64,000 nucleotides of DNA from a virus. This document shows, one piece after another, positions 1,644 through 30,283 of the stretch. Below the pieces are notes generated by a model, which was not told the DNA's origin, searched no databases, and was given only the letters and a program-made list of their open reading frames with translations. Position numbers and translations under genes: made by a program. Where the stretch lies: the IMG/VR virus record IMGVR_UViG_3300009370_000007, positions 1-64,000 of that record; one strand, 5' to 3'. How positions within the stretch are numbered: the first letter of the stretch is position 1; every line of letters starts with the position of its first letter.

Positions 1644-2390
1644 TTACTTTACCTTTGCGTATGGTGCCCGCACATCTAAGTCTCCCTTTGCAAGAAGGTC
1701 TGCCGCCTGTGTATGCTGTGCCTTATCTGCATCAATGACAGGCATATCAGCTCGGGGTGGGGCTCCTTTAGGTGGGGTAGATCGTTGAATCTTTTTTAGT
1801 CTCGTTTCTAATTCAACTCGACCACCAATGTTTATTAACCATTGTGTTGCCTTTGCTTTATTATAGAACTTTGAGTTCATGTTCTTTCCAGTAAGAACTG
1901 CATCAACAGCATCTTCTATGGTTGCCTTGAAGATGTTTACATCTCCTCCTGCTGGAGTCCCACGACGCTTGTTACCAAACACGTCTCCCAATGCGCGAAG
2001 CACAGGAACCAGATCACCAATCTTTAACTTGGCCTCAATTCCAGAGATCGTTGCCTTGGGGTCATTGAATATCGTTGCTGCCCAACGATGATGTCCATCA
2101 AGAATTCTTTTATCTTTTGAAACAATGGCTCCAAGGTCGCCGCCTTTGACACCATTGATTGCCATGCCTAACGCCTTGCCGAGATAAACCGAATCTTGCG
2201 ATGCTTTAAGGTTTGTCGCCTTCCAAGTCTTTGGGGTCGCCTGTACAATATCATCCGTCTCATTACCATCCATTTTTCCTTTTCTTGTAAATATCTTTTT
2301 CAATATATCAGTTATTGGATTAGGGAAATATTTTTTATTTATTTCCTTAGTCCGTAGCTCTTCATTTAAATGATGCTTAAAACTTTTCAT
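1644..2390 (-). CDS. Capsid-targeted protein with ParB/sulfiredoxin-like motif
   Basis: This 248-residue protein starts MKSFKHHLNEE, the tag shared by the cargo genes to its right, with L-N-E as the likely prohead-protease cut at residue 10. Residues about 85-130 carry IVSKDKRILDGHHRWAAT. The DGHHRW core matches the ParB/sulfiredoxin fold, where D-G-x-H-R lies in the nucleotide or nuclease pocket. The rest is basic and unknown. GAGGG precedes the ATG, and a perfect late-promoter box lies 32 bases upstream. I infer a packaged enzyme, possibly a nuclease or ATP/CTP-binding protein. The fold call rests on this one motif. Confidence 0.75.
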   Translation of the reverse strand: MKSFKHHLNEELRTKEINKKYFPNPITDILKKIFTRKGKMDGNETDDIVQATPKTWKATNLKASQDSVYLGKALGMAINGVKGGDLGAIVSKDKRILDGHHRWAATIFNDPKATISGIEAKLKIGDLVPVLRALGDVFGNKRRGTPAGGDVNIFKATIEDAVDAVLTGKNMNSKFYNKAKATQWLINIGGRVELETRLKKIQRSTPPKGAPPRADMPVIDADKAQHTQAADLLAKGDLDVRAPYAKVK

Positions 2391-3625: not shown

Positions 3626-4135
3626 TTACTCTTCTCCTATTTCTGGTGGTGTTACTTCTGGTTGTCTCAGTCTAGGTTCTCTACGATTATAATGTTGAGT
3701 TACAATAGAAAGATTTTTTCTGTCATTATTTAATGGATTGTTGTCCTTATGGTGGACATCCTTTCCATTAATTTCATCATTGCTTTTAACCTTCTTCTTC
3801 ATAATCCTTCTTGCCGAGTTTCTCGCAGACCTTCTTTCTATCTGGTCAGGCCGCGAATGATAATTCGCATATTCTCTTTTATAATCTCGCTCTGATAAAT
3901 TCTTTACGCGAGACAGAGTAATCTCATGCTGATGTTCTGGATACATTCCTTCAAGTATCTTAGATCCAGACTCAATGGCTTCATCCTGAGAATCTTCAAA
4001 TACAATAAAGAATCCTTTATATCTCTCATCCTCTTCTGAAAATACATCGAATGCAATCTTCCATGCAGACTCTTGCTTGTTGGATGTTTCTTCTTCTTCT
4101 TGAATATTCTTTATAAGTTGTTTAAATGATTTCAT
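3626..4135 (-). CDS. Capsid-targeted HNH nuclease-like protein
   Basis: The 169-residue product starts MKSFKQLIKNIQEEE: a CTS-like tag with an I-Q-E cut site near residue 13. Residues about 20-75 form an alpha/beta domain resembling small phage accessory folds, then come a very basic linker and an HNH-type motif. This reads DVHHKDNNPLNNDRKNL (about 125-142), with the His pair and the N-x-L-x-N spacing of HNH endonucleases. The start overlaps the preceding stop as TAATG, with GGAG upstream. A packaged nuclease could attack host or rival DNA on entry, or act in packaging. Unlike the two other HNH genes in the window, it carries a head-targeting tag. Confidence 0.75.
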   Translation of the reverse strand: MKSFKQLIKNIQEEEETSNKQESAWKIAFDVFSEEDERYKGFFIVFEDSQDEAIESGSKILEGMYPEHQHEITLSRVKNLSERDYKREYANYHSRPDQIERRSARNSARRIMKKKVKSNDEINGKDVHHKDNNPLNNDRKNLSIVTQHYNRREPRLRQPEVTPPEIGEE

Positions 4136-4746
4136 TAGTTTGGACTCCCTACCATAATCTTCAAATGGTTACTTCCTCCTAGATTGCGCTCATACCATCC
4201 AACGTAATCTGGATACTTCCCGTTTGGATTTGCCCCTACCCATGTTAACTTCTTTCCGGGGAGGAGTTGTCTTACCTTCTCTTCGCTATTGACGTAGGGG
4301 ATCTTGTACTTTTTAATTAAAACATGGGCGATGGCATCGGAGACTTCAGCATAATTTCCCTTTGTTCTCAGTATCTTATTAGTTTTATTTAACATAATCT
4401 TCTTTGCTGCTGCCGATCCATCGGTTGCGCTCCCTGTAAACTTCAGGCCTCCCGGTCCTCCCTTTGCAAACTTGACTGCATCTATCTCAGGATCTTTGTC
4501 AATATCCACAACGAGCCATTGAGTAAAGTCCGAAGGAATATCAGATACTTTATTAAAATCAAGATGTCCACCAATGGGTTCATAGGTCTTCTGGATCAAA
4601 TCAAAAATATCCTTTGTTACGTCGGTGTCTGGATTGTGTAATATATGTAGGGGCGCACGAAACCATTTGCGTTTCGTTCCTTTGGTTATCGTGGGAACAG
4701 ATAGATCGCGCTTCTCTGCGATGAGGTATTGGTTAAAGGATTTCAT
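4135..4746 (-). CDS. Capsid-targeted cargo protein of unknown function, 203 aa
   Basis: It begins MKSFNQYLIAEKRDLS, one of the clearest CTS-like tags, with I-A-E as the predicted cut at residue 11. The body is a mixed alpha/beta domain with conserved-looking blocks such as FTQWLVVDIDKDPEIDAV, KGGPGGLKFTGSATDGS and YPDYVGWYERNLGG. The last pattern recalls a GNAT-type acyltransferase fold, but I cannot confirm it. The start overlaps the preceding gene as ATGA, showing operon coupling. I would treat the enzyme idea as a weak guess and the cargo assignment as the main call. Confidence 0.7.
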   Translation of the reverse strand: MKSFNQYLIAEKRDLSVPTITKGTKRKWFRAPLHILHNPDTDVTKDIFDLIQKTYEPIGGHLDFNKVSDIPSDFTQWLVVDIDKDPEIDAVKFAKGGPGGLKFTGSATDGSAAAKKIMLNKTNKILRTKGNYAEVSDAIAHVLIKKYKIPYVNSEEKVRQLLPGKKLTWVGANPNGKYPDYVGWYERNLGGSNHLKIMVGSPN

Positions 4747-5426
4747 TTCTTTTTGCTCTTCTCTTTTTGTTTCCTATGGGCATCCCGAGATACCTGCTTT
4801 GGATCATCGGAGATGATGTTCCCAAAGTTGCCTCGGAGCTTTAGAGTATCCTGCATGGATCTTTTTGGACTTGGAAGATTTGCACCAGAGGTCAACTTGG
4901 AAACATACTTCTCTGCTTCTGCCTTGTTTCTCATGGGAGCAGAGATGCTCATCCAGCCTACCCCCCCTAATGCATACCACTTCTTGTCCACAGGATTCTG
5001 GGCAATGATGACGCTGTGTCTTTCTTTGCGTCCGGCCTTGACAGTCTTGAAGGATGCCTTTGTGGTTTCCCCTTTTTTCTGAAGGGCAACCGAATCACCC
5101 TCCACAATGGGTCTTCCCTTCTTCTTCTGGAATGCCACATACTCTTTATAGTATGGATAACTCTTGGGTTCGTTGGCACGTTTCTTTTCTTTGGCTTGCA
5201 ATACAATACATTTAAACCATGCTTCCTGTGACGTGTATACTCCAGCCGCTCCCATCCTCTTGGCAGCACCAGCATCTACGCGAAATTTTCCATTCTCATC
5301 AGCAACTCTTCTCTGAAGTGAAAATCCACGCCTTCCTTGCTTGGCAACCCAATAGACATTGCCGGGTTTTCTCTTCTCCCCAGTAGGCTCTGCCGTTTCA
5401 TTTATATATTGGTTAAATGATTTCAT
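4743..5426 (-). CDS. Capsid-targeted basic cargo protein with DKKWYA domain
   Basis: I start at 5426 (MKSFNQYINETAEP) because GGGAG lies 5 bases ahead; the frame is open 12 bases further. I-N-E at residue 10 is the likely protease cut. The 227-residue body is strongly basic (Lys/Arg-rich C-terminus) and carries QNPVDKKWYALGGVG (about 145-160). The same module occurs as KNPHDKKWYAMGHVG in the cargo gene 6759-7241, so the two share a C-terminal domain. Its charge suggests DNA contact inside the head. No enzyme motif was seen. Confidence 0.72.
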   Translation of the reverse strand: MKSFNQYINETAEPTGEKRKPGNVYWVAKQGRRGFSLQRRVADENGKFRVDAGAAKRMGAAGVYTSQEAWFKCIVLQAKEKKRANEPKSYPYYKEYVAFQKKKGRPIVEGDSVALQKKGETTKASFKTVKAGRKERHSVIIAQNPVDKKWYALGGVGWMSISAPMRNKAEAEKYVSKLTSGANLPSPKRSMQDTLKLRGNFGNIISDDPKQVSRDAHRKQKEKSKKK

Positions 5427-6274
5427 TTTGTCTCCCATACTGTTTCGTCGCGCATCTTCAATGCCTGTAGGGTTCGAGATTTTTTCTCTCCCCCCTTGGG
5501 GTTCCAGATCCGAATCACCAAATCTTTATTATCGTTCTTGCCCCCGGCAACCCAATCCATGATACCCAAAGAAGTTTCATTTCTATCCCACCCTTCGCCT
5601 GTTACTACTTCTTGATGAATGGCATTGTCGGCATCCCAGATTAAGAGCTTCCCTACCTTATCCACGATGAAGCGAGCCTGCTTCCATCTGATCTTTTTTA
5701 AAAACCCTAACGTCTCCCCGGCACTTGGATTCTCCAATCCAGTAATGCTCTCTTTCTTATGGGCACCTTTGTATGGAAGGGAGACGAACAGGGGAACCTT
5801 CTTTTCTTCAAGGCTTTCATTCCTCTTCCTTGAAAACACAAAATGCACCTCGTCACTCTTGTCAAGTTCTCTTGTGTTATATCCATTCTTTCTCGCAAAC
5901 ACCTTTGCAAACCGAGAGTAGAGTTTGGTTCGACTTCCGGCTCCATCCTTTTCTGTCTTGTCGGCAGTAAAGGAAAACAGATTGGGGCTCACCTCTTTGA
6001 CGAATACCTCAAGCAACTTGGCGACTGTTGAAAAGACTCGGACGGCACTCGTCCCCTGTGTTCCGGTGATTCCCATATCGTTACCTGTCTGAGATGCATG
6101 AAATATAATTTCCCAACCAATGCTCACCTTCAATGCCTCAAAGTGATACGTCTGTTTATTGTCCGTGACAAACGAGGCATTCCACACCTTATCCTCAATG
6201 AAGCGATTTCGTTTCCATCGGTATGGCTGGTTGCCTACTTCTTGGAGTTGTATGTATTGCACGAAGGATTTCAT
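5423..6274 (-). CDS. Capsid-targeted cargo protein, 283 aa, unknown function
   Basis: It begins MKSFVQYIQLQEVGNQ, with L-Q-E at residues 10-12 as the likely cut. The N-terminal half looks like an alpha/beta domain. The C-terminal half starts after NESLEEKK (about residue 155), where a second L-E-E site could separate two parts. It contains WDADNAIHQEVVTGEGW and MDWVAGGKND, where an Asp/His cluster is visible but no named motif is. The stop overlaps the next start as ATGA. Part of the cargo operon; possibly a two-module protein cut twice. Confidence 0.7.
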   Translation of the reverse strand: MKSFVQYIQLQEVGNQPYRWKRNRFIEDKVWNASFVTDNKQTYHFEALKVSIGWEIIFHASQTGNDMGITGTQGTSAVRVFSTVAKLLEVFVKEVSPNLFSFTADKTEKDGAGSRTKLYSRFAKVFARKNGYNTRELDKSDEVHFVFSRKRNESLEEKKVPLFVSLPYKGAHKKESITGLENPSAGETLGFLKKIRWKQARFIVDKVGKLLIWDADNAIHQEVVTGEGWDRNETSLGIMDWVAGGKNDNKDLVIRIWNPKGGEKKSRTLQALKMRDETVWETK

Positions 6275-6276
6275 GT

Positions 6277-6756
6277 CTACCTCTCGGTGAAGTCAACCGT
6301 TGCATTTTTCTTCTGCATATCTGCAATGAATTCACCAATAGACTTCTTGTCTGCAAGGGCAGATTTATTGTAACTCTGGATGTCAACCTCAACCTTGTAT
6401 CTCTTGTCTGTCTTGTGCTTGATCTTTGCCTTCTTGAGTTCCTTCACCAAGTCCCTTGCATAGGCCACGCCCCATCGTTGTGAATGGGAATCGCCAATGT
6501 CCATCAACCGTTCCCATACAAATTCTTCGGTATCCTCAGATTGTCGTTTCGCTGCCACAGGATCTTCGTCATAGAAGTATTCGTATACAGCATCGAAGAA
6601 TTGAACATTCCTTCTGTCGGAGAGTTCCGCTCCAGCCATGACTCTTGCATACTCCTTGGGAAACTTGTCGAGGATTGCCTGGAGCTTTGGGTTAATCCCT
6701 CCGAGGAAGTTTATTCTGAGGTCTTCGTTAATGAGATATTGACTAAAGGTTTTCAT
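6277..6756 (-). CDS. Capsid-targeted cargo protein sharing a module with the polyprotein
   Basis: I start at 6756 (MKTFSQYLINEDLRI), where GGGAGGA lies 8 bases ahead; the longer frame has no site. I-N-E at residue 11 is the likely cut. The C-terminal 75 residues (SHSQRWGVAYARDLVKELKK onward, ending VDFTER) match residues about 231-300 of the 1244-aa protein, where the block starts HHSQRWGKIHARDLIKKLKK and ends VDFSER. So the same module exists both as a separate cargo and inside the polyprotein. Function unknown; the module is small, basic and rich in Lys. Confidence 0.75.
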   Translation of the reverse strand: MKTFSQYLINEDLRINFLGGINPKLQAILDKFPKEYARVMAGAELSDRRNVQFFDAVYEYFYDEDPVAAKRQSEDTEEFVWERLMDIGDSHSQRWGVAYARDLVKELKKAKIKHKTDKRYKVEVDIQSYNKSALADKKSIGEFIADMQKKNATVDFTER

Positions 6757-6758
6757 TA

Positions 6759-7241
6759 CTATATTCCTCCCAACTCTTTCTCTGCGGCAGGATTCACTAC
6801 TTTGGCTTGAATCTTCGCCCACTTCTGAGCTTCTGCCTTGCTCTTGAATCCATTGGAGACGGGCATCCACTTGTTTTTTCCGACATGACCCATTGCATAC
6901 CACTTCTTGTCATGTGGATTCTTCTCTACGATATACTTTGTGCCAGACCATCCTTCTAGCTGAAAGTCGCGTTGGGTCTGTCCCTTATGATGAAGTTTAT
7001 TTACCTCCATATGTTTGAATGCCGCCTTGGCTTCTCTGTCGCCCTTCTTGGCTCTCTTTGCAATTTCCCTAGAAACCAAGTCGCGAGTCTTGGCCCACTT
7101 CTTGTCTGTCTTGACAAGTTTTTGCCCTGACTGTTGAGTGTTGAGCCATACGAACATTGGTTCAAGATCCTTGGTTGTCTGCCGTGCAACGTCTCTAGGA
7201 TTTGACATATCTTCAAGTATGAATTGGTAAAACGATTTCAT
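6759..7241 (-). CDS. Capsid-targeted basic cargo protein with DKKWYA domain
   Basis: It begins MKSFYQFILEDMSN, with I-L-E at residue 10 as the likely cut. The 160-residue body is basic and helical, then has KNPHDKKWYAMGHVG and an AEAQKW helix near the end, paralogous to the domain in 4743-5426. The ribosome site is only a purine run (AAGAAAGAAAG). It lies two bases before the next cargo gene. A compact DNA-binding or inhibitory domain is possible, but no motif decides it. Confidence 0.72.
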   Translation of the reverse strand: MKSFYQFILEDMSNPRDVARQTTKDLEPMFVWLNTQQSGQKLVKTDKKWAKTRDLVSREIAKRAKKGDREAKAAFKHMEVNKLHHKGQTQRDFQLEGWSGTKYIVEKNPHDKKWYAMGHVGKNKWMPVSNGFKSKAEAQKWAKIQAKVVNPAAEKELGGI

Positions 7242-7262: not shown

Positions 7263-7604
7263 TTATGGACTATGTGGTGGCTCGCCCTTTTTTAATGAGC
7301 GAAGATCCCTCTTTGCCTGACTATATTCTTTTCTTGCTTTTTTATATTGGCGTCGTAGTTCTCTTCTTTCGTCCACTAAATTCCTTCCATGCATACTATA
7401 TGCAAAAACTCCTTTTCCGCCTTGTTCTCTTGGAGTGAGCAGCGTTTGTATTTCATTCTGTCTTTGTTGTATGTTTGCAATTGAAGTTCTTATGCCTTCT
7501 AGGTTTCTTTCCTTGGCTTCAACCTTCTTTTGTTGAGTTGGGGAAAGTTTTTTCTTTCTGCCAAACAATTCATCAACTTGTTGATACTCTGTAAATGATT
7601 TCAT
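7263..7604 (-). CDS. Capsid-targeted coiled-coil cargo protein, 113 aa
   Basis: It begins MKSFTEYQQVDELFG, a divergent CTS-like tag with V-D-E at residues 10-12. The rest is highly charged and helical with Gln-rich and Lys/Arg-rich coiled-coil stretches (about residues 20-60 and 75-108). It has AAGGA and GGAG near the ATG and directly follows the polyprotein gene, five bases after its stop. Its makeup is like basic internal head proteins that neutralise packaged DNA. No catalytic motif is present. Confidence 0.7.
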   Translation of the reverse strand: MKSFTEYQQVDELFGRKKKLSPTQQKKVEAKERNLEGIRTSIANIQQRQNEIQTLLTPREQGGKGVFAYSMHGRNLVDERRELRRQYKKARKEYSQAKRDLRSLKKGEPPHSP

Positions 7605-7609
7605 TGTCC

Positions 7610-10600
7610 TTACTCTCCAATTTCTTCGGTATAATAATCGAGTAATTCCTCTGCAATTGCCTGCTTGGTTTCCTTATTGATCTGCCTAGCCCATCCTGGG
7701 CTGGCGTGTTCTTTCTCATACTTCTTAATTCCATCTTTGACAAGATACATGAATGCCTTGATTGCCTTTAGTCCATCATAGGTTGCATCGCCAACCTTCT
7801 TTGAAAGGTTCTTGATAATGGATGTGGTGCGTTGTCGATAGAGTTGTCCGTCATTGGTGATATAGAGAACGAGTTCCCTGACCGTATTCTGATCGACAGC
7901 TTCTTTTAGATTTACAATATATTCTTCCGATACCTTATGCTTCTTCTTGGCCTTCTGTCCTGCACGATCCGCCTTTGATCTGGAATCTTCTGTTCCCGTA
8001 TCCACTACTGTCTGTTTCCCCTTTCCTCCTTCATGCTCAACCCTCTGAAGAATCCATTTGTATGATCCGTCTTCCTGTTTCATCGTCCGTACCATCAGAA
8101 CACCACCATGTCGTTTGGCTCCTGCGCGTAACTCGTCAATGTTCTCGACTTCTTCATTAACATTAATCTTTGAAGTATCGACGGTGCTACTATAGTTGTC
8201 CACAGGAAGATTATACTTTCTTGCCAGAGTTCCAATAGGAGAAACAGGCAACATGAAATGCTCCTGGGCAGCATCAAGGAATGCAACGACGGCAGCCTTC
8301 CCTGTTAGCCTCATTCGGTTTCCCTTCTTGAGTGTCTTGACAATATCGTTGAGTGCTTCCATGACTTGAACTGCAATGGGAGAACCAATTGGCAATGTCT
8401 TTTCCTTTTTGACTACTGCGGACTGTAGCATGACATAGAGTGTTGCCATTCGTACATCTTCAATATTCTTTGGAAGTCGAACTGCCTCATTGATTGATTC
8501 TAGTTCAACTCCTTCTCCCAGCTCTGTCCAGATTTTTGCAACATCTTTTGGTACTCCACCTCGCTCAAAATTATCATTCTTCTTTAGCCATTTCCTGATG
8601 AGGGGTCCGACATCTGCCTTTGGTCCCTTCCTCTTGCGAAGGGCATCAAACTTGCTAAAAAGTTCATCGTCTCCAAGGATTCCCTTCAATTTTGCCTCGG
8701 CTCCTTCCTTGGATGACTCTGGATCGTTATAGTTGCTCACTCCAACAGGAAAAGGTTTCTTCAAGAGTTTTCGTAACTTCTTGATTGTTGCTGGCTTGTT
8801 AGGAATAGACCATGTGCCTTCTTTGAGTTCGCTCTCCTGGGCAATCTGGGCAGCCAAGGCCTTCTTTCCCTCCTTGGCGGCATACTTGACTACTGCTCGC
8901 TTCAATGCTCGCTGGTCAATTTCTCCACCCTTGACAACTCCTGTGGTGTCGATCTTGCAAAGGGCATCCTTGAATTTCATTCCACCCTTGATTAGCATTG
9001 CAATGGTGGCTCCTAGTTTCTTGTAGTCGGTTCGTTCTTCAAGAGGAGGAAGAATCTCTTCTTTGACCTTCTTTTTCTTTTTTGCGGCCGCGGCGCGCTT
9101 TTGGGAATCTTCTTCCGAGCGCCGCTTTCCCATCCTGAGCAATCGACGCTGTAGGTCTGCCATTACGGCCGGATCGTCTCCGTCTCCACCACGGGGCTTC
9201 CCCTTGTAGGCTCGATTGAATTCCATTTCGTCAATCTCTACTTCTTCTTTGAACCCGAGTGGCTTATAGTATGTATAGACCAATTGTCCAGACTTATCCT
9301 CTACACCAATCGTAAGGGAATCATTCTTGCCATGCTTCTCCAGAAAATCATAGATGATTGCTGGAACCTGAGTGGAAACCATTGCTGGCTTGGACTGTGC
9401 CACTACCTTCTTTCCCTTCAAGGCTACAACAGTATATGGGGGAGTCCCCTTCTTAATGTCGCGGACTCCTTGAACACCGATTTTCTTTTTATAGATGGCT
9501 TCAGGAATGTACTCTTCCTTGACTGCTGCACCCTTCACAATGATCCCTCTCATACCCAGACCCTTGACGTTCTTTAGGAAAGTCTCTGCATCCTTCTTGC
9601 TGGCTAGTGTTGCAACCATGATGCGTCCCTTTTTGGTATAGGAATACTTGACGGTGTACGGATCTGATGCCTGACCGGGACGATTGCCTACCGCAAACTT
9701 CGCCTGCTTGGTTTTGGGTGTGTCTCGATATTCTGTTACAATAGTTTCTTCTCTTACATCACCCTTAATAATCTTTCCACCCATACCGAGTCCCTTGACA
9801 TCTTTAAGGAACTTCTTTGCATCGGCTTCTCCACTAAGGGTTGCCCACATCTTTCGACCTTGCTTGTCATACCAATACTTGACGGTATAGGGATCTTCGG
9901 CTCCTCTTTTCTCTGTGATGATAACAGGAGTCAGGATCGTTGCACCTGTCTTGGGGTCCATTGCTGTTGCATATGGCTTTCCCTTGATCTTGCTCTTGAA
10001 GTCCTTGTGCAGTCTTGCATAGTCCTTCTTGGACATGGTATAGTCATCACCATCCCATCGTCCACCTCTTGCATCGCGATCCTTGGAGGGTTCAAACTTA
10101 CTGCCACGGTGATCTCCTCGATATTTCTTGGCGTGTGACGGTGAGACACCAATGCGTCCCTTGGCCATTTTATGGGCACCACTATCCAGTCCACCTTCGC
10201 GAATTCCTTTTGCTGAAACATTGCCCTTGGCTGAAACTGTCATCTTCTGCAAATTGAAATGTTTCTTTGTTGCGGCAATTCTCTGAGAATGACTGCCTTT
10301 TTGTTTTTCATAGAAGGCCTTGATTTCATCATTGGAAGGAATCCCGCGCAACCGCATATGAGCCAGACGCGCCTTCTCCTTCTCATTTCCCATGCCGCCC
10401 TCATTAACAAATTCCTCAAATCGTTTTTTGCGTCCCATTGCGTCCCTTTCTGAAAAATCAACTCTTCCGTTGTTCTTCTTTATATCTGCGAGTAGATCAC
10501 TAACAGGCATTTCTTTTGCGAGAGATGAACTGTTGTAACTAGTTATATCAAAACTAACATAGTATGCATTGTCCGTCTTATGTTTAACATTTGCCTTCTT

Positions 10601-11344
10601 GAGCTTTTTTATGAGATCCCGTGCATGAATCTTTCCCCACCTCTGGGAATGATGATCTCCTGCATCGAAGTTGACCATGACGGCCTCGTTGATTGCAACT
10701 GGTTTTGCTCCCGGTCCTGATTGAGCCAGAATGACCCATCCAGGTCCTTCGGGTAGTTTATCGCTGACTAGACCCGTTGCTCTCTGTGCAGCCACGGCAC
10801 CATGATTCTTGCCAACCTTTGCGGCACCAATAGATGATGCCCTTTTAGAAACGTGACCGATAACCTTGTGGTATCCCCTCTTGCCTTTGATCTCTGCATA
10901 GACAGGAACCTTTCCCTTGCCTACGTCGGTGGCTTCGTTAATAATCTCGTCTCCCTCGTCATTGGTAGTGATTTGTTTCGATTCTTCCTTGATTGCGAGA
11001 ATTGTCTCATAGGAAGTCTCGCCAGAATTCTTATGGGCAACAACTTCTTTCCCTAATGGGCTGTTAGTTTTATCGCGAATCTCGATGCTATGAGAATCTC
11101 CGAGTCCTGTGCGCTTACGATAATTGGCATCGGGCTCATCTCGGATGTATACGATTTCTTTGCCAGACACTTTGGATAACTGTAGTCGTCTGAGGAGTTC
11201 TCGATATTGCTTTAGAATTTCCGGCGCGTCTGCTCTGAGTTTTCTTTGAATTGCAACAATCTGTTTGGTTGTGGGGTAGTTAATCTGCCCTAAATTTAAA
11301 GGCGCTTCATTCATGCTAATCAAGTTTTGCTTGGTTACTTTCAT
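7610..11344 (-). CDS. Putative internal-head polyprotein, 1244 aa, cut by prohead protease
   Basis: The protein starts MKVTKQNLISMNEAPLNL and is Lys/Arg-rich throughout. It is punctuated by short (I/L/V)-x-E-(A/G) sites like those cut by T4 gp21. The Glu residues fall near 13, 137 (IINEA), 220 (AINEA), 315 (VNEG), 478, 538, 615 (IPEA), 706, 842 (LKEG), 953 (INEA), 1071 (IDE) and 1148 (LKEA). The segments between are about 60-165 residues. Segment 221-315 matches the free cargo protein at 6277-6756. Segments near 484-528 and 561-605 are tandem copies (DPYTVKY start, KGLGM end). AAAGGA lies 9 bases before the ATG. I know no annotated family for the whole; the polyprotein reading is inference from the sites, shared modules and operon. 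Confidence 0.8.
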   Translation of the reverse strand: MKVTKQNLISMNEAPLNLGQINYPTTKQIVAIQRKLRADAPEILKQYRELLRRLQLSKVSGKEIVYIRDEPDANYRKRTGLGDSHSIEIRDKTNSPLGKEVVAHKNSGETSYETILAIKEESKQITTNDEGDEIINEATDVGKGKVPVYAEIKGKRGYHKVIGHVSKRASSIGAAKVGKNHGAVAAQRATGLVSDKLPEGPGWVILAQSGPGAKPVAINEAVMVNFDAGDHHSQRWGKIHARDLIKKLKKANVKHKTDNAYYVSFDITSYNSSSLAKEMPVSDLLADIKKNNGRVDFSERDAMGRKKRFEEFVNEGGMGNEKEKARLAHMRLRGIPSNDEIKAFYEKQKGSHSQRIAATKKHFNLQKMTVSAKGNVSAKGIREGGLDSGAHKMAKGRIGVSPSHAKKYRGDHRGSKFEPSKDRDARGGRWDGDDYTMSKKDYARLHKDFKSKIKGKPYATAMDPKTGATILTPVIITEKRGAEDPYTVKYWYDKQGRKMWATLSGEADAKKFLKDVKGLGMGGKIIKGDVREETIVTEYRDTPKTKQAKFAVGNRPGQASDPYTVKYSYTKKGRIMVATLASKKDAETFLKNVKGLGMRGIIVKGAAVKEEYIPEAIYKKKIGVQGVRDIKKGTPPYTVVALKGKKVVAQSKPAMVSTQVPAIIYDFLEKHGKNDSLTIGVEDKSGQLVYTYYKPLGFKEEVEIDEMEFNRAYKGKPRGGDGDDPAVMADLQRRLLRMGKRRSEEDSQKRAAAAKKKKKVKEEILPPLEERTDYKKLGATIAMLIKGGMKFKDALCKIDTTGVVKGGEIDQRALKRAVVKYAAKEGKKALAAQIAQESELKEGTWSIPNKPATIKKLRKLLKKPFPVGVSNYNDPESSKEGAEAKLKGILGDDELFSKFDALRKRKGPKADVGPLIRKWLKKNDNFERGGVPKDVAKIWTELGEGVELESINEAVRLPKNIEDVRMATLYVMLQSAVVKKEKTLPIGSPIAVQVMEALNDIVKTLKKGNRMRLTGKAAVVAFLDAAQEHFMLPVSPIGTLARKYNLPVDNYSSTVDTSKINVNEEVENIDELRAGAKRHGGVLMVRTMKQEDGSYKWILQRVEHEGGKGKQTVVDTGTEDSRSKADRAGQKAKKKHKVSEEYIVNLKEAVDQNTVRELVLYITNDGQLYRQRTTSIIKNLSKKVGDATYDGLKAIKAFMYLVKDGIKKYEKEHASPGWARQINKETKQAIAEELLDYYTEEIGE

Positions 11345-24915: not shown

Positions 24916-26352
24916 CTAGAGCTTGATTAGAGCCTTTCGATAATAGGCATTGTTGTGTGCCCCGCCGCCTGTAAATGGATTATTAACAAACCCGTAACGA
25001 GTCTTAAATCCAATCTTTGGCTGGAAGGTGTCCTCTCCTACTGCACGCACCATCTGTAGTGGTACATATGGGCAATAGAAAACACCGGCATCATAGGCTG
25101 AAGTGCCCTTATATCCATTAATCGCATATTCATATGTTGGATTAAGTGAAGCATAAGGATCAATATAGACCTTGACACCACCTCCAATAGTTCCTGCAAA
25201 CGTACTGCCATTGACATCGCTGTTCAATGCAGGACTAGGATCAAGAACGCCAGACGTTGACAATGCAGATGCAATGTTGGGTGACACGATTAGCATATTT
25301 CCCTTGCCGCGACGTGTTGCGATACCGATCTTATTGGCTTCCTTCTCGAAGTACCAATTAAGAATCTTGAATCGCTCAACCAACCAACGTGCAGAACCGA
25401 GATCGTCTCGGTGTTCTACTCGCGTTAGGTCAACAAGTCCTGCTGCTGCTGTATTTGCACCAGAACCAACTTGCGCTGCCAGAGCAATCTTACGAACAAC
25501 CTCTCGATTGATCTCAGCATTGATCTCAGTCGAAAGAATGTTGGAAAGCTCGGCTTCGGCATCAAGACCATGAATAGCCTTGAGATCCTGTGCAAGCTCT
25601 GTGGTGTACTCAGCCTTGAGGGCCCGAGTTTGTGCAACAACAGAAGTCTTCTCAATGGTGAATCCCATCTCTGGAATCTGATTAGTTGCCTCAGTTCCCC
25701 AAAGTTCGGCAACCGAAGTCGCTGCACCATTACCAGTAAGAAATGTTCCGTCTGGTTGGGTAATAATATCCGCCAAGCCGTCGCCTGATACAGTTCCATC
25801 AGGATCAGCAGTTGCCGTTAACATGGCTTCCATTGCACCTGTATGGAGCTTGCCATCGGCTGGTACTGGATTATTCTCACCAGAAGTATCATCTGAAGAA
25901 ATACCGGAATATGCGGTATTTGCTTCGTTGAATAGTGCTTCGCCAGTTCCATCGGTCGCGGAACCAGCAACAACCCCCTTTGGAGCATACTTCGCCTTGA
26001 GAGCAAAGATAAGTCCGGTAGGACCATTCATTGGCTGTACGCCACAAATATCATATGCCATGAGATTTGGGGCATTGCGGCGAACGAGACTAATTAGGAC
26101 TGGATCAAAGGCAGCAACATTAGTGCCACCAGCGTTAGTTCCGCCGGTATCCATTCCAGAAAAGTTTGTTGTCTCACCGAGAAGCCCGCCGCCGCTTTGG
26201 GAGGCGTGGTCTTCGCGAAGAGCAACTTCTTCGTTCTCCAATAGTTGTGCTGTGACAGCGCGTCGATAAGGGTCCTTAATTGGATCAAGGTCTTCGTGAT
26301 CTAGTACGGGCTGCCACTTTTGTGTAAGTCGATCAAAATTTGAATCAGACAT
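24916..26352 (-). CDS. gp23: Major capsid protein gp23
   Basis: This 478-residue T4-type capsid protein has the conserved DPVLISLVRRNAPNLMAYDICG block (about 82-103) and MNGPTGLIFALKAKY. The N-terminal 60 residues include a pro-region likely removed by gp21; Glu sites are near EEVALRE (about 43). AAGGAG lies before the ATG. It follows scaffold gp22 and is closed by the window's strongest terminator. It forms the hexamers of the head shell. Confidence 0.97.
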   Translation of the reverse strand: MSDSNFDRLTQKWQPVLDHEDLDPIKDPYRRAVTAQLLENEEVALREDHASQSGGGLLGETTNFSGMDTGGTNAGGTNVAAFDPVLISLVRRNAPNLMAYDICGVQPMNGPTGLIFALKAKYAPKGVVAGSATDGTGEALFNEANTAYSGISSDDTSGENNPVPADGKLHTGAMEAMLTATADPDGTVSGDGLADIITQPDGTFLTGNGAATSVAELWGTEATNQIPEMGFTIEKTSVVAQTRALKAEYTTELAQDLKAIHGLDAEAELSNILSTEINAEINREVVRKIALAAQVGSGANTAAAGLVDLTRVEHRDDLGSARWLVERFKILNWYFEKEANKIGIATRRGKGNMLIVSPNIASALSTSGVLDPSPALNSDVNGSTFAGTIGGGVKVYIDPYASLNPTYEYAINGYKGTSAYDAGVFYCPYVPLQMVRAVGEDTFQPKIGFKTRYGFVNNPFTGGGAHNNAYYRKALIKL

Positions 26353-26396
26353 TTTGTTTTAACTCCTTGTTAAAAGTGGTTTATAAGTAAACGCAA

Positions 26397-27596
26397 TTAC
26401 TCTTGAATAACATTCTTCTGTGTTCGAGCTAATGCGCCAACATAAGCAGACATTGTGCCGGTGGTTTCTTCAAAGATGCCACCCTCAACTTCCTGCTCCT
26501 CTACAATAAATTGCTGATTAGTTGTTCCTGTCTTGGGGAAGTAGTTTTCCCTGAGTGTGCCAAGAGCATTTGCATACTGCTCGACATCTTCAAAGTCTAC
26601 TCCTTCGGACAGTTCCTTCAACTTCTCATACTCTGTATCGACAAGACCATCAGAACTCTGAATAAGGAGTTCAGTCTTCTGATACTCATTGATCTGCTTC
26701 TGCATATCAATTGTCCTTTCAATACTTTCATTTAGTTCACCCTCTAGCTTATCGACACGATCTGCAAGAGTATCTGCTACATCGAGCTTCTCATCTGGAA
26801 TCTCGATATAATGTTCTGCGAAGAGATTGCGTAGTCCTGTAATGAACTCTTCACTAATCTCTGCCTGTAGACCCTTGGTGATTGCAAGCTCATTTTCCTT
26901 CTGCCATTCATCTACGGCATAGGAAAGATACTCGTCAACCTTCTCGGTCATATCAGTAAGATTTTCTTCGCGAGCTTCGGTTAGCTCTTCGTCAAACTTG
27001 CTTTCAATCTTCTCTAGCTCCTCATTTACCTTGGCAATGAGCGCAGCCTCAAAGATTATTGCTGCCTTTGACTTAAAGTCATCGGAAAGATTAACTTCGT
27101 CGTTAAACATTGCAGCAATATCAGCAGAAAAATCAACATCCTCTGCCTTTAGCCTAGTCTTCTCTCCCTTGTCGCCCTTCTTTCCAGCCTTGACCTTCTT
27201 TGTTACTTCTGTAGTCTTATCTACAGACTTGAAAATCTCGTCTGGATCTGCAACATTGGGATCGTCCTTTGCTTCGTCAAGATCGTCGTCCTCTTCAAGA
27301 GTAGTAAGAGAGTGCATGATCTTATCGAAGTGAGACTCTAGCTTGGTCTTCTTGGTATCCTGAAGCTGATTAAAAATAGCGCGAACCATAGCGGGCTTAG
27401 TCAACGATTCCTTAACCCCCTCTTCTTCATCTTCATCTTCTTCGTCTTCTTCTTCATCATCATCATCCTCAAAAGGTTCTTCGTCTTCTTCAGTTTTCTC
27501 CTGAAGGACTTCTTCTTCTGACTCAGAAGTTTCGCGAAGAAGCTCTTCGATTTCTTCGTCTGTGATGGCTTCTGTTGAAACGGTTTCTTCTGACAT
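26397..27596 (-). CDS. gp22: Prohead scaffold protein gp22
   Basis: This 399-residue protein has a very acidic N-terminus (Glu/Asp run, residues about 10-65) and a long helical, coiled-coil body, the makeup of the T4 core scaffold. Many I/L-x-E sites suit destruction by gp21 after assembly. The position between protease 21 and capsid 23 fixes the identity. It is longer than T4 gp22 (269 residues), mostly through the acidic head. AAAGGAG and an exact late box precede it. Confidence 0.93.
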   Translation of the reverse strand: MSEETVSTEAITDEEIEELLRETSESEEEVLQEKTEEDEEPFEDDDDEEEDEEDEDEEEGVKESLTKPAMVRAIFNQLQDTKKTKLESHFDKIMHSLTTLEEDDDLDEAKDDPNVADPDEIFKSVDKTTEVTKKVKAGKKGDKGEKTRLKAEDVDFSADIAAMFNDEVNLSDDFKSKAAIIFEAALIAKVNEELEKIESKFDEELTEAREENLTDMTEKVDEYLSYAVDEWQKENELAITKGLQAEISEEFITGLRNLFAEHYIEIPDEKLDVADTLADRVDKLEGELNESIERTIDMQKQINEYQKTELLIQSSDGLVDTEYEKLKELSEGVDFEDVEQYANALGTLRENYFPKTGTTNQQFIVEEQEVEGGIFEETTGTMSAYVGALARTQKNVIQE

Positions 27597-27643
27597 TATA
27601 TGGCTCCTTTGTTTAAAGCTATCAGGTTGTTATTCCTAATGCA

Positions 27644-27651
27644 TATTTATA
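27644..27651 (-). promoter_or_regulatory. T4-type late promoter TATAAATA
   Basis: The exact late consensus on the minus strand lies 48 bases before the scaffold ATG and just before the gp21 stop codon. It would drive gp22-gp23. Confidence 0.75.
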
Positions 27652-27655
27652 TATT

Positions 27656-28309
27656 TTACAATTTTGAAAGAAAGTTCTTAAATACCCTTAATTGAACGGC
27701 TTCTCTATCGGCTCGTTTTGATTTTTCAATTTGAGATTTAAGTTCTTGAATGGTTCTTTCTTTAATTATACCATTTTCCCAAATCCATTCTTTTCCTTCC
27801 ATCATTCCTTCAACAAATGCATCGGGAGCAGATGGATCTGCAACAATATCTGCCGCAGTAGCAAGATAAAAATCATCTTGCACTACATTTACGCCTCGTC
27901 GTGGCTTCAATGAACCCATTCCGCGAGACGAAACACCTAACTTGGCACCCTCATCAATAAGATTCTTTGCAATCTTTCCATATGGGGTGTCCATTAACTT
28001 TGCTTTTCCTACCCAGTTATCATTATCTGGGCTTAATTCCTTAATCATATGAGAAACTCTTTCTAGATTAATGACCGGCCCATCGGGATGACCTAGTTCT
28101 CCGAAGGCTCGATTTTGCTTAATATACTTGTCGTTATATTTCGCAACTTCCCTTCCGAGAGTCTCTCGGGGATAGACTCGTCCATTTCTATTCTTTGTTT
28201 CTGCCTGCATGAAGACGCCCTTAATATAATAATCCTTCTTGCCGGATTTAGTTTCTTCTACCAAAACTTCAATTTGATCGTCGTCTACTACTTCGGTAAT
28301 GAGTTTCAT
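27656..28309 (-). CDS. gp21: Prohead core protease gp21
   Basis: This 217-residue serine protease matures the T4-type prohead by cutting after (I/L)-x-E. The herpes-protease-like triad is visible: His74 in FGELGHPDGP, Ser127/128 in GVSSRGMG and Asp near 154-158 in ADIVADPSAPDA. AGGAG precedes the ATG. It is the enzyme expected to cut the CTS tags and the I-N-E-A sites of the polyprotein at 7610-11344. Its cut motif was inferred from T4, not measured here. Confidence 0.95.
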   Translation of the reverse strand: MKLITEVVDDDQIEVLVEETKSGKKDYYIKGVFMQAETKNRNGRVYPRETLGREVAKYNDKYIKQNRAFGELGHPDGPVINLERVSHMIKELSPDNDNWVGKAKLMDTPYGKIAKNLIDEGAKLGVSSRGMGSLKPRRGVNVVQDDFYLATAADIVADPSAPDAFVEGMMEGKEWIWENGIIKERTIQELKSQIEKSKRADREAVQLRVFKNFLSKL

Positions 28310-28320
28310 TTGATTTTCTC

Positions 28321-29388
28321 CTAAAAAGATATATTCTTGATTGCAAAGCCTGACATCTTAAGAAATCCTGCTCGATTTTTTGCCAAGGTAGATGCAAACT
28401 TAACTTTGTTTTTTACACTTAACGCATCATATACTTTTGTGACAGCATTTGCAGTCATCATATCTACTAAAAGATGTTTTCCATCAGCCAATTTAACCTT
28501 CTGGCCCTGTGAATCTTTAACAATTTTTCTCATGGTATTGATAATGGCTTCTCCCTTGCCCGCCTGTTCATGGACAGCGACCGATTCTCCTGCTATTGAA
28601 ACTGAATCTGCTGCCTTGTCCAACATATCTTGCTTTTTCTTGTTGGCCTTCTCAGCTTTTCGGACTAAAGTATTTTTCCTAACCTTTTTAATTGCCTGAT
28701 CGACATCTTCCCGAGTCTGTTTATTTTTCAGGGCGGCCAGACGATCTTCAATTGCCTTTTTTTGTGCTGCCTTCTGTTCTTTCTTTTCTATTCTTGCGAG
28801 ACGAGCCTTATCTGTTGGGGAAACTCTTGCCACAAACTTTTTGATTCCTATCTTTCCCCCTTTGATGGCCTTGTCTGCAACATAATCATCTGCCGCAGCC
28901 TCATGAATAAAAGATTCGCCTGTGGCAATTGCTCCTGTTTTTCCTTTTCGTATTGCCTTTTCCTTTTGTTTGTCCCTGACTTCTCTTGCCTTTAATGCTT
29001 TTTTTTGAGCCTTTGCTGCGGCTCTGGTTCGCCATGAACTTCCGGGCTTCATTGCCGCCTTGTGCATTTTTCTGGCAGCAGTTTCAGCCCTATCTTTTGC
29101 CTCTATTCCCTTTATCGTTGTTCCTGCCTTCTTGGCTCTTAGTCCTGAAATTCCCTTTCCCAATGCATAACCGATTGCCAGTCCACCGGGAGTCAGACCA
29201 ACCGCCCTTCTGGCTTTGTTGAGCTTTGCTAATTTGCCAAATTTTCCTGCTGCTGCGACTCCTCCTGCTGCACCCAGGCCTGCAGTTTTTGCTACCTTTC
29301 CTTCAATTACTGGAGTTTCTAAAGCCAACTCAGGATTAGAAGTTGAGCAGATAGATTCGGCTCGAAATTCTTTAAAGGGTTTATTCAT
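28321..29388 (-). CDS. Basic prohead core protein, CTS-like start (gp67/gp68 position)
   Basis: I start at 29388 (MNKPFKEFRAES), which overlaps the preceding stop; the longer frame would lie inside the upstream gene. The start resembles the head-targeting tag (K-x-F-K-E-F). The 355-residue body is Ala/Lys/Arg-rich, like a histone H1 tail (about 75-260), with internal V-I-E-G, I-H-E-A and V-H-E-Q sites for gp21. It shares a block (KKAGTTIKGIEAKDRAETAA) with the neighbour 29381-30283 (RKHGTSMKGVRAKDRQRTA). It occupies the place of T4 core genes 67/68 but is far larger. Confidence 0.75.
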   Translation of the reverse strand: MNKPFKEFRAESICSTSNPELALETPVIEGKVAKTAGLGAAGGVAAAGKFGKLAKLNKARRAVGLTPGGLAIGYALGKGISGLRAKKAGTTIKGIEAKDRAETAARKMHKAAMKPGSSWRTRAAAKAQKKALKAREVRDKQKEKAIRKGKTGAIATGESFIHEAAADDYVADKAIKGGKIGIKKFVARVSPTDKARLARIEKKEQKAAQKKAIEDRLAALKNKQTREDVDQAIKKVRKNTLVRKAEKANKKKQDMLDKAADSVSIAGESVAVHEQAGKGEAIINTMRKIVKDSQGQKVKLADGKHLLVDMMTANAVTKVYDALSVKNKVKFASTLAKNRAGFLKMSGFAIKNISF

Positions 29389-30283
29389 CGTCGAGAAGGC
29401 CCTCTTCTGGTGGAATACCAATAAAATCTCCTGCAATCTGGATCTTCTTGGTGGCAAGATGGTCTGTTACTTTATTTGACATGATTGGAGTTAGTAAATC
29501 AAGAACCCTTGATGGGCTTCCTTCATTTGCAGCCTGGACCAAATTCATAACGGACTCAAATTGTTCTCCGTAAGCCCTTCTCTGAAGATTGGTTGTGTCT
29601 TTACCAGTTGTGTCTTTCTTAATACCATGTTTTTTTGCTGTTTTTTGAGCCCTTATTTTTTCTTTCGCTCTACTTCGAGCCAGTCGATCTGCTCTTTTCT
29701 GTTTTCTTACTGCCTTTCTGGCTAGACGACCGCTTGTTGGCTTTGCCTTTGCTTTTGCTGCAACTTTATCCGCAGTACGCTGCCTGTCCTTTGCTCGTAC
29801 ACCCTTCATTGAAGTTCCATGCTTTCGGGCTCGGATATATTTAACCCCCAACGCGCCGCCGGGGACAGAGGAAGCACCAAAAGCGGTTATTGCCCTACCT
29901 TTTGCTGCGGTCACTCCATGATCGGCCTTTACCCTTGTTTTTGGATCAGATACTTTTTTTTCGGCAATATAGGAATTTACAAACTCTAATTCCTCTTCGG
30001 TCAAAGAATCTAAAAAGTAATCAACCTGTTCTTCGGTAAAATCCGAAAAGTCTAAGTCTAGTTCTTCCATCATTTCATTGTCTCCTTGAGTTTGTTGGAT
30101 GGTGTCTTCATGTGCAGCCCTGGCCCTGGCTCTGGCTCTGGCTTTATTGGCAGCCCGAGCTTTCTTATATGCAGCCCGGGCAGACTTTCTTTCCTTGGCT
30201 GATTCCGCGTCTAGTTTATTCTGTGTTCTTATTGCCTGCTTAAGTGATGATATTTCATCAAGTTCAATTTCTTCGTTAGCCAT
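29381..30283 (-). CDS. Basic prohead core protein, paralogue of the next gene
   Basis: The 300-residue product has an acidic N-terminus (EEIELDEISSL), an alternating Ala/Arg/Lys stretch (about 30-60), and an acidic block with EEELEFVNSYIAEKK (I-A-E site near 108). A second Ala/Arg/Lys-rich part (about 150-210) is paralogous to 28321-29388. The tail is more ordinary. It lies between the accessory cassette and gp21, matching T4 core genes 67/68. AGGAGG precedes the ATG and a late box lies 41 bases upstream. Likely core scaffold or DNA-condensing internal protein. Confidence 0.75.
   Translation of the reverse strand: MANEEIELDEISSLKQAIRTQNKLDAESAKERKSARAAYKKARAANKARARARARAAHEDTIQQTQGDNEMMEELDLDFSDFTEEQVDYFLDSLTEEELEFVNSYIAEKKVSDPKTRVKADHGVTAAKGRAITAFGASSVPGGALGVKYIRARKHGTSMKGVRAKDRQRTADKVAAKAKAKPTSGRLARKAVRKQKRADRLARSRAKEKIRAQKTAKKHGIKKDTTGKDTTNLQRRAYGEQFESVMNLVQAANEGSPSRVLDLLTPIMSNKVTDHLATKKIQIAGDFIGIPPEEGLLDDE

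Follow-up and report, generated by a model that had tools for sequence, protein, structure and literature searches.

A modular putative head-cargo polyprotein in a T4-like phage and its relatives in marine cyanophages

In phage T4, the internal head proteins IPI, IPII, IPIII and Alt, which gp21 processes and which are ejected, are encoded as one cargo per gene and cut once per protein. Their capsid-targeting sequence (CTS) has the format MKxY/F..FIxE↓ (arrow, cut site), in which positions 4 and 7 are needed for targeting and positions 8 and 10 for processing, and the cuts follow an L/I-x-E rule (PMC9026906). T4 gp22, gp67 and gp68 are instead each cut by gp21 into several fragments, which mostly exit (PMC9026906). 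In the giant phages SPN3US/phiKZ, gp53, gp54 and gp47 are ejected head proteins that a gp21-like protease cuts after x-x-E, with some propeptides cut at several sites (PMC10052503); of the 14 cuts mapped, 13 take off an N-terminal propeptide and the other matures the protease, none releasing many different cargoes. The polyvalent proteins (Iyer et al. 2017) carry many unrelated domains per chain, are mosaic, are predicted to be injected and were compared with polyproteins by their authors (PMC5512222). Here we describe a gene that very probably encodes a head-cargo polyprotein of 1244 aa. It lies at 7610–11344 on the minus strand of the window, i.e. the 64,000 nucleotides analysed, which are positions 1 to 64,000 of the 107,022-base IMG/VR virus record IMGVR_UViG_3300009370_000007 of a marine T4-like phage.

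The open reading frame (ORF) starts with ATG, has the ribosome-binding-like sequence AAAGGAAACC upstream, and is exceeded by its stop-to-stop frame by 4 codons only. Cuts at [ILV]xE would divide the deduced protein (138.3 kDa, isoelectric point (pI) 9.7) into about 13 modules of 60–163 aa, most of them with a pI of 9.2–10.1 (Table 1), in agreement with the spacing of about 60–165 residues given in an earlier reading of the bare sequence (the original prediction). An extra site, IRE383↓G, may lie in the module 4 region. That reading had also claimed that some modules match each other, which holds for one pair and no other: modules 5 and 6 (479–538 vs 539–615) share 58% identity, and the joint falls at corresponding positions in the two. 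Its match between a module and a free cargo protein was borne out, as module 3 shares 55% identity with the C-terminal part of the neighbouring product c6277 (226–300 vs the MKTF protein of ORF 6277–6903, z=42). A BLAST search of phages with the whole protein gave no matches at E<0.01, and searches of PHROGs, Pfam, NCBIfam, PADLOC and PDB sequences gave nothing significant. At E<=10, a 42-residue cyanophage match was obtained, which opened the way to the cyanophage family described below.

Direct relatives were found when modules 5/6, or the module common to c4743 and c6759, were used as queries. Since they carry several modules as separate head-targeted proteins with the same start residue, the gene looks like a head-loading viral polyprotein. 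In locus L247, module 2 stands alone as a CTS gene (9712–10182, 64% identity), MKSFLKYITE↓ATNVGK...EVSVNE↓ADSKYIVE; the window has INE↓ATDVGK...PVAINE↓AVMVNF, with the same start as the free protein and the same end site (VNE↓A in L247). Module 13 is likewise a free CTS gene in L247 (14524–14880, 75% identity), MKSFKSLKKIIYE↓AVDKSTVREL (IYE↓), corresponding to YIVNLKE↓AVDQNTVREL in the window. CTS removal and cuts at 137 and 1148 would therefore yield the same mature N-termini. L247 also encodes a 661-aa polyprotein, starting MKTFKNLRVLDE↓, in which modules 12, 5/6 and 4 of the window chain have homologues in changed order, with joints VDE↓GGMG, MNE↓NVLMVHT and IRE↓, and L246 a 410-aa polyprotein, starting MKTFKTLRVDE↓, with modules 7, 12, 5/6 and the start of module 4; both N-termini are canonical CTSs. 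In L246, the joint before the homologue of module 12 reads INE↓NVLMVHT, and the GGMG start of module 4 follows IEE↓, as against VDE↓ in L247. Residues 313–383 share 80% identity with L247, where the homology ends at IRE↓YE, and the L247 piece behind VNE↓ occurs as a separate CTS gene in L246 and L250–L260. The prohead protease is present in the records of L246, L247, L248, L249 and L260. Among 28 records with gp21 relatives, many of them fragments, the polyprotein was found in none, and a scan with module 3 gave no relatives. At the level of sequence, the free CTS modules, the shuffled polyproteins and the module edges falling exactly at the proposed sites support the original prediction of a polyprotein cut by the prohead protease.

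Bare [ILV]xE motifs number 25 in the 1244-aa protein vs 17.6 expected (P 0.04), and their count was dropped as evidence. The motif [ILV]xE[AGS] occurs 11 times vs 4.0 (P 0.002) and EE..[ILV]xE 7 times vs 0.5 (P<0.001). Since these refinements (small P1' residue, upstream EE) could be post hoc, a site profile was trained only on insertion breakpoints of cyanophage modular proteins, the window being excluded. This independent profile found 12 sites of >=6 bits vs 3.4 in local shuffles (maximum 10 in 300) and 6 sites of >=8 bits vs 1.2 (maximum 4), confirming a modular ORF with about a dozen sites. The best-scoring sites were 315, 615, 137, 762, 220, 842, 953, 706, 120, 1064, 1071 and 532. Among the six sites named beforehand, 137, 220, 315, 615 and 953 scored 7.9–13.4 bits; 1148 scored only 4.1 bits, yet it is the site best supported by a relative, the free module 13 of L247. 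With the same profile, no excess was found in the sheath, terminase, gp46/47-like and tail proteins, the further large proteins of the window (the control labelled 'gp68like', which was sliced out of frame, is disregarded). Module ends set by homology alone lay on average 6 aa from the sites vs 36 aa for circular shifts, and 0 of 1243 shifts came as close. An internal-CTS scan of the window chain alone gave one match, which was not significant (P 0.066).

The same architecture is found in T4-like cyanophage isolates and contigs, in proteins of up to 1143 aa annotated as hypothetical, and the modules of one small member match 365 phage records, nearly all from T4-like cyanophages. P-TIM40_113, S-SSM6a CYVG_00104, S-SSM4 CYXG_00146 and S-CREM2 gp160 resemble the window chain in architecture, in a homologous module (residues 437–478, matching the MSKKDYAKIHKDFKS module with a score of 102 vs a shuffle maximum of 58) and in [ILV]xE joints of the same profile, but they differ from it in most modules and their records do not recognise polyproteins. 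At 148 distinct insertion breakpoints in 215 nonredundant modular proteins of cyanophage-type loci, [ILVF]xE was present at 50% vs 11.7% at random places. Little or no excess was seen when Glu was replaced by Asp, Lys or Gln in the motif, and offset controls favoured a hydrophobic residue two to three residues before Glu. As breakpoints of related phages are not fully independent, these ratios weigh more than nominal probabilities. Two modules, ATRxKKEKGYD and DWQKKSGK (related to DUF6321), are found both as free proteins preceded by MKNFQEFQE↓ or MKTFSEYLNE↓ and inside chains after the unrelated joints MLPE↓, VTE↓, VDE↓ and VKE↓, with their start unchanged.

A further cyanophage module is S-adenosylmethionine (SAM)-lyase-like (PF23780, Pfam 5e-8; best PDB folds 6zm9/6znb) and is preceded in 25 polyproteins by an internal T4-type CTS, e.g. 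KTYREFIAE↓GN. All 23 aligned linkers of this module retain Glu at P1 and L/F/I at P3, and aromatics occupy CTS positions 4 and 7 in 22/23 and 23/23, respectively, the rest of the linker varying. In an AlphaFold model, the joint region (29–58) had a predicted local distance difference test (pLDDT) value below 50 and the following domain was better, which is weakly consistent with the joint being a linker. In P-SSM2, a SAM-lyase-like protein (L074:7998–8522) is free behind the CTS MRTFQEFLQLCE↓, and is a candidate for head-delivered SAM depletion against methylation-based defence. Mass spectrometry of virions has detected S-CREM2 gp137 (4 peptides), gp160 (7), gp136 and gp155 and S-SZBM1_139 (4) (PMC10665884, PMC9146016); all belong to the polyprotein kind, being modular or CTS-bearing, with gp137 and gp160 among the modular ones, and three small members are included.

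The ORF, its module structure, the free CTS homologues with identical predicted mature ends, the shuffling at sites and the presence of gp21 are seen directly, and from these we infer the cutting, retention, ejection and function of the window modules. Processing is assigned to the prohead protease because of the T4 L/I-x-E rule (PMC9026906) and the module edges. It is proposed that i) the chain enters the prohead core via its N-terminal propeptide and perhaps also internal CTS-like stretches, ii) gp21 would cut behind the Glu of about 12 [ILV]-x-E joints during maturation, iii) about 13 small, mostly basic proteins would be freed, and iv) these would stay with the DNA and enter the next host by ejection, in the manner of T4 IPI–III and of the adjoining free CTS cargo. 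By in-frame fusion, one import signal could carry many cargoes in equal number, and a cut site at every joint would allow modules to be gained, lost and shuffled with the released protein unchanged.

The resemblance to T4 IPI, IPII, IPIII and Alt lies in the CTS-type N-termini (of the adjoining cassette and the polyprotein relatives), a gp21 gene in the genome, small basic cargo and the L/I-x-E motif, whereas the window chain differs in uniting about 13 modules through about 12 joints. With T4 gp22, gp67 and gp68 it shares several gp21 sites (predicted, in the window chain) in one precursor; the T4 fragments, however, are not shuffled, individually CTS-bearing cargo. Like polyvalent proteins, it joins several modules with independent homologues. 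For those proteins, however, processing was proposed by embedded zincin metallopeptidases, and the main text of that paper (PMC5512222) contains no cyanophages, no prohead-protease mechanism and no CTS or joint motif. CTS/gp21 cargo loading is the known part; the present case is a variant of it, with a credible case for more.

The main rival is a prohead core or scaffold-type protein that gp21 cuts to clear space, with the pieces exiting and having no function in the next host, since the T4 core proteins are cut likewise and a relative of module 13 lies inside a 767-aa protein of contig G032 that also holds the prohead protease. This we consider unlikely: the modules also exist as free CTS-bearing proteins, which is the T4 format of retained cargo; their order and content vary as in cargo, unlike core genes; the gene lies at the head of the cargo operon, about 16 kb downstream of the gp21-gp22-gp23 block on the same strand; and the cyanophage cousins have enzyme-like modules (SAM lyase), some of these cousins being found in virions. 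The chain had no core-protein match in PHROGs or Pfam. Somewhat less probable still is an uncleaved, ejected polyvalent protein in which the Glu-rich joints are plain flexible linkers and xE is incidental. Polyvalent proteins of 2–15 domains are known in phages (PMC5512222), and xE would become more frequent if basic modules were joined by acidic linkers; however, module starts coincide exactly with the starts of free proteins after CTS removal, P1 Glu and the P3 hydrophobic residue persist in the 23 SAM-lyase linkers while the remainder drifts, the breakpoint controls favour the hydrophobic position with no excess for Asp or Lys, and Pfam found no peptidase domain in the chain. The contig comes from an uncultivated phage, so separate CTS genes might have been joined by lost stops through fusion or misassembly with no biological meaning, but this is highly improbable given 1244 open codons, regular module spacing and the presence of independent fusions in L246 and L247 as well as in many contigs and isolate genomes of cyanophages.

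Several points weigh against the polyprotein interpretation itself. The phage is uncultivated and known from sequence alone. T4-type internal head proteins are defined by an N-terminal CTS with a gp21 site within about 7–20 residues, and the window N-terminus, MKVTKQNLISMNE↓, is an atypical CTS with no aromatic residue at 4 and 7. As the bare motif count is barely above chance, some listed sites may be unused. AlphaFold modelling of residues 45–1244 was uninformative (mean pLDDT 40.6) and was not used. In the cyanophages, the long member S-SZBM1_194 (707 aa) is absent from the S-SZBM1 virion list, and the authors of the S-CREM2 study considered that non-structural proteins could be contaminants.

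The genes after the polyprotein gene, the first only 5 bases away, nearly all start with MKSF/MKTF and have Glu at residue 10–13 (c7263, c6759, c6277, c5423, c4743, c4135 and c3626, and farther on c1644), matching the T4 capsid-targeting format (PMC9026906). The C-terminal module of the c6759 product is free behind a CTS in L250–L260 and L246:8381–8605. A homologue of c4135 forms the C-terminal part of a 508-aa protein in L247 (L247:11501–13024), behind LLE↓DDSV, which makes another fused/free pair. The c1644 product has a DGHHR motif, is ParB/nuclease-like by eye and matches phrog_2859 at 4e-6. The gp23, gp22 and gp21 homologues occupy 24916–28309 on the minus strand; that of gp21 matches the T4 gp21 structure 5jbl (3.7e-19), with its serine region GVSSRGMGSL aligned to GVASRGLGSL. 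Upstream of gp21, two basic/acidic proteins (28321–30283, minus strand) have the xE sites MNKPFKEFRAE↓, GESFIHE↓ and ESVAVHE↓ and are probably core proteins in the gp67/gp68 position.

Table 1. Coordinates in the window of the putative polyprotein gene, its predicted modules and neighbouring head-related genes
Feature	Position	Strand	Basis
Modular head-cargo polyprotein gene (putative)	7610..11344	-	ORF, sequence
Putative N-terminal capsid-targeting propeptide MKVTKQNLISMNE↓, residues 1-13	11306..11344	-	sequence; atypical
Module 1, residues 14-137, to INE137↓A	10934..11305	-	profile 11.1 bits
Module 2, residues 138-220, to INE220↓A	10685..10933	-	free CTS homologue in L247
Module 3, residues 221-315, to FEEFVNE315↓G (internal CTS-like sequence)	10400..10684	-	13.4 bits; CTS-like motif P 0.066; homology to c6277
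Module(s) 4, residues 316-478, to ITE478↓K	9911..10399	-	homologues in L246, L247, cyanophages
Module 5, residues 479-538, to VTE538↓Y	9731..9910	-	duplicate of module 6
Module 6, residues 539-615, to IPE615↓A	9500..9730	-	11.3 bits; homologues in L246, L247, L249
Module 7, residues 616-706, to IDE706↓M	9227..9499	-	L246 homologue, between IEE↓ and INE↓
Module 8, residues 707-770, to VKE762↓E or LEE770↓R	9035..9226	-	9.7 bits at 762
Module 9, residues 771-842, to LKE842↓G	8819..9034	-	8.8 bits
Module 10, residues 843-953, to INE953↓A	8486..8818	-	7.9 bits
Module 11, residues 954-1064/1071, to VNE1064↓E and/or IDE1071↓L	8132..8485	-	6.7 bits each
Module 12, residues 1072-1148, to LKE1148↓A	7901..8131	-	homologues in L246, L247
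Module 13, residues 1149-1244, plus stop	7610..7900	-	free CTS homologue in L247
CTS cargo gene c7263, MKSFTEYQQVDE↓	7263..7604	-	sequence
CTS cargo gene c6759, MKSFYQFILE↓	6759..7241	-	sequence, relatives
CTS cargo gene c6277, MKTFSQYLINE↓, with free copy of module 3	6277..6756	-	sequence, homology
CTS cargo gene c5423, MKSFVQYIQLQE↓	5423..6274	-	sequence
CTS cargo gene c4743, MKSFNQYINE↓	4743..5426	-	sequence
CTS cargo gene c4135, MKSFNQYLIAE↓	4135..4746	-	sequence
CTS cargo gene c3626, HNH-nuclease-like, capsid-targeting N-terminus	3626..4135	-	sequence, family search
CTS cargo gene c1644, MKSFKHHLNE↓	1644..2390	-	sequence, family search
gp21 prohead protease homologue, presumed processing enzyme	27656..28309	-	phrog_207 6.8e-81
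gp22-like scaffold	26397..27596	-	family match
gp23-like major capsid protein	24916..26352	-	family match

Contig G032 (116,195 bp) encodes a 4064-aa ORF (L273:532–12723) with 102 xE motifs and a relative of window modules 5/6. It has 39 [ILV]xE[AGS] motifs vs 15.9 in shuffles (maximum 26 in 300 shuffles), its zeta-toxin/AAA_33 kinase-like domain starts behind VVE↓, and it is possibly the largest member of the polyprotein kind. On the same contig, L274 (G032:24212–26512) has its prohead protease homologue within the 767-aa frame together with acidic stretches and the module-13 relative. CTS-like N-termini are also present on cyanophage cytidylyltransferase/NMNAT proteins (L068:4640–5809, MKKFSDFLTE↓; L243:3609–4469, MKNFSSFLTE↓; L245:2390–3478, MRFRQFIIE↓) and would explain the repeated detection of these proteins in virion proteomes.

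The original prediction had regarded such a polyprotein as a new way to load a head. In the open literature searched, with subscription papers and preprints outside its scope, no multi-cargo polyprotein processed by a prohead protease is described. However, the gene is not a one-off, since T4-like cyanophages widely carry proteins of the same kind, and cutting into several pieces is not unique to it, given T4 gp22, gp67 and gp68, though those pieces mostly leave. Polyprotein head loading appears to be widespread and undescribed in ocean cyanophages. It seems reasonably likely that marine T4-like phages generally load their heads in this manner, through multi-cargo polyproteins in which each joint bears a cut site (and, in cyanophages, an embedded CTS). 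Such chains, ranging from about 300 to more than 4000 aa, would serve as exchangeable cassettes of counter-defence and takeover proteins for ejection, freed by the prohead protease inside the capsid, as a bacterial-virus counterpart of eukaryotic viral polyproteins. If so, this would account for a large class of genes that stand without annotation in abundant ocean phages, with related modules in the 365 phage records, and a rule would be available for dividing such chains into the actual protein units when they are annotated or their structures predicted. It would also provide many candidates for counter-defence proteins that are ejected, a SAM lyase packaged in the head among them, and a natural design by which many proteins are loaded into a capsid by one signal.

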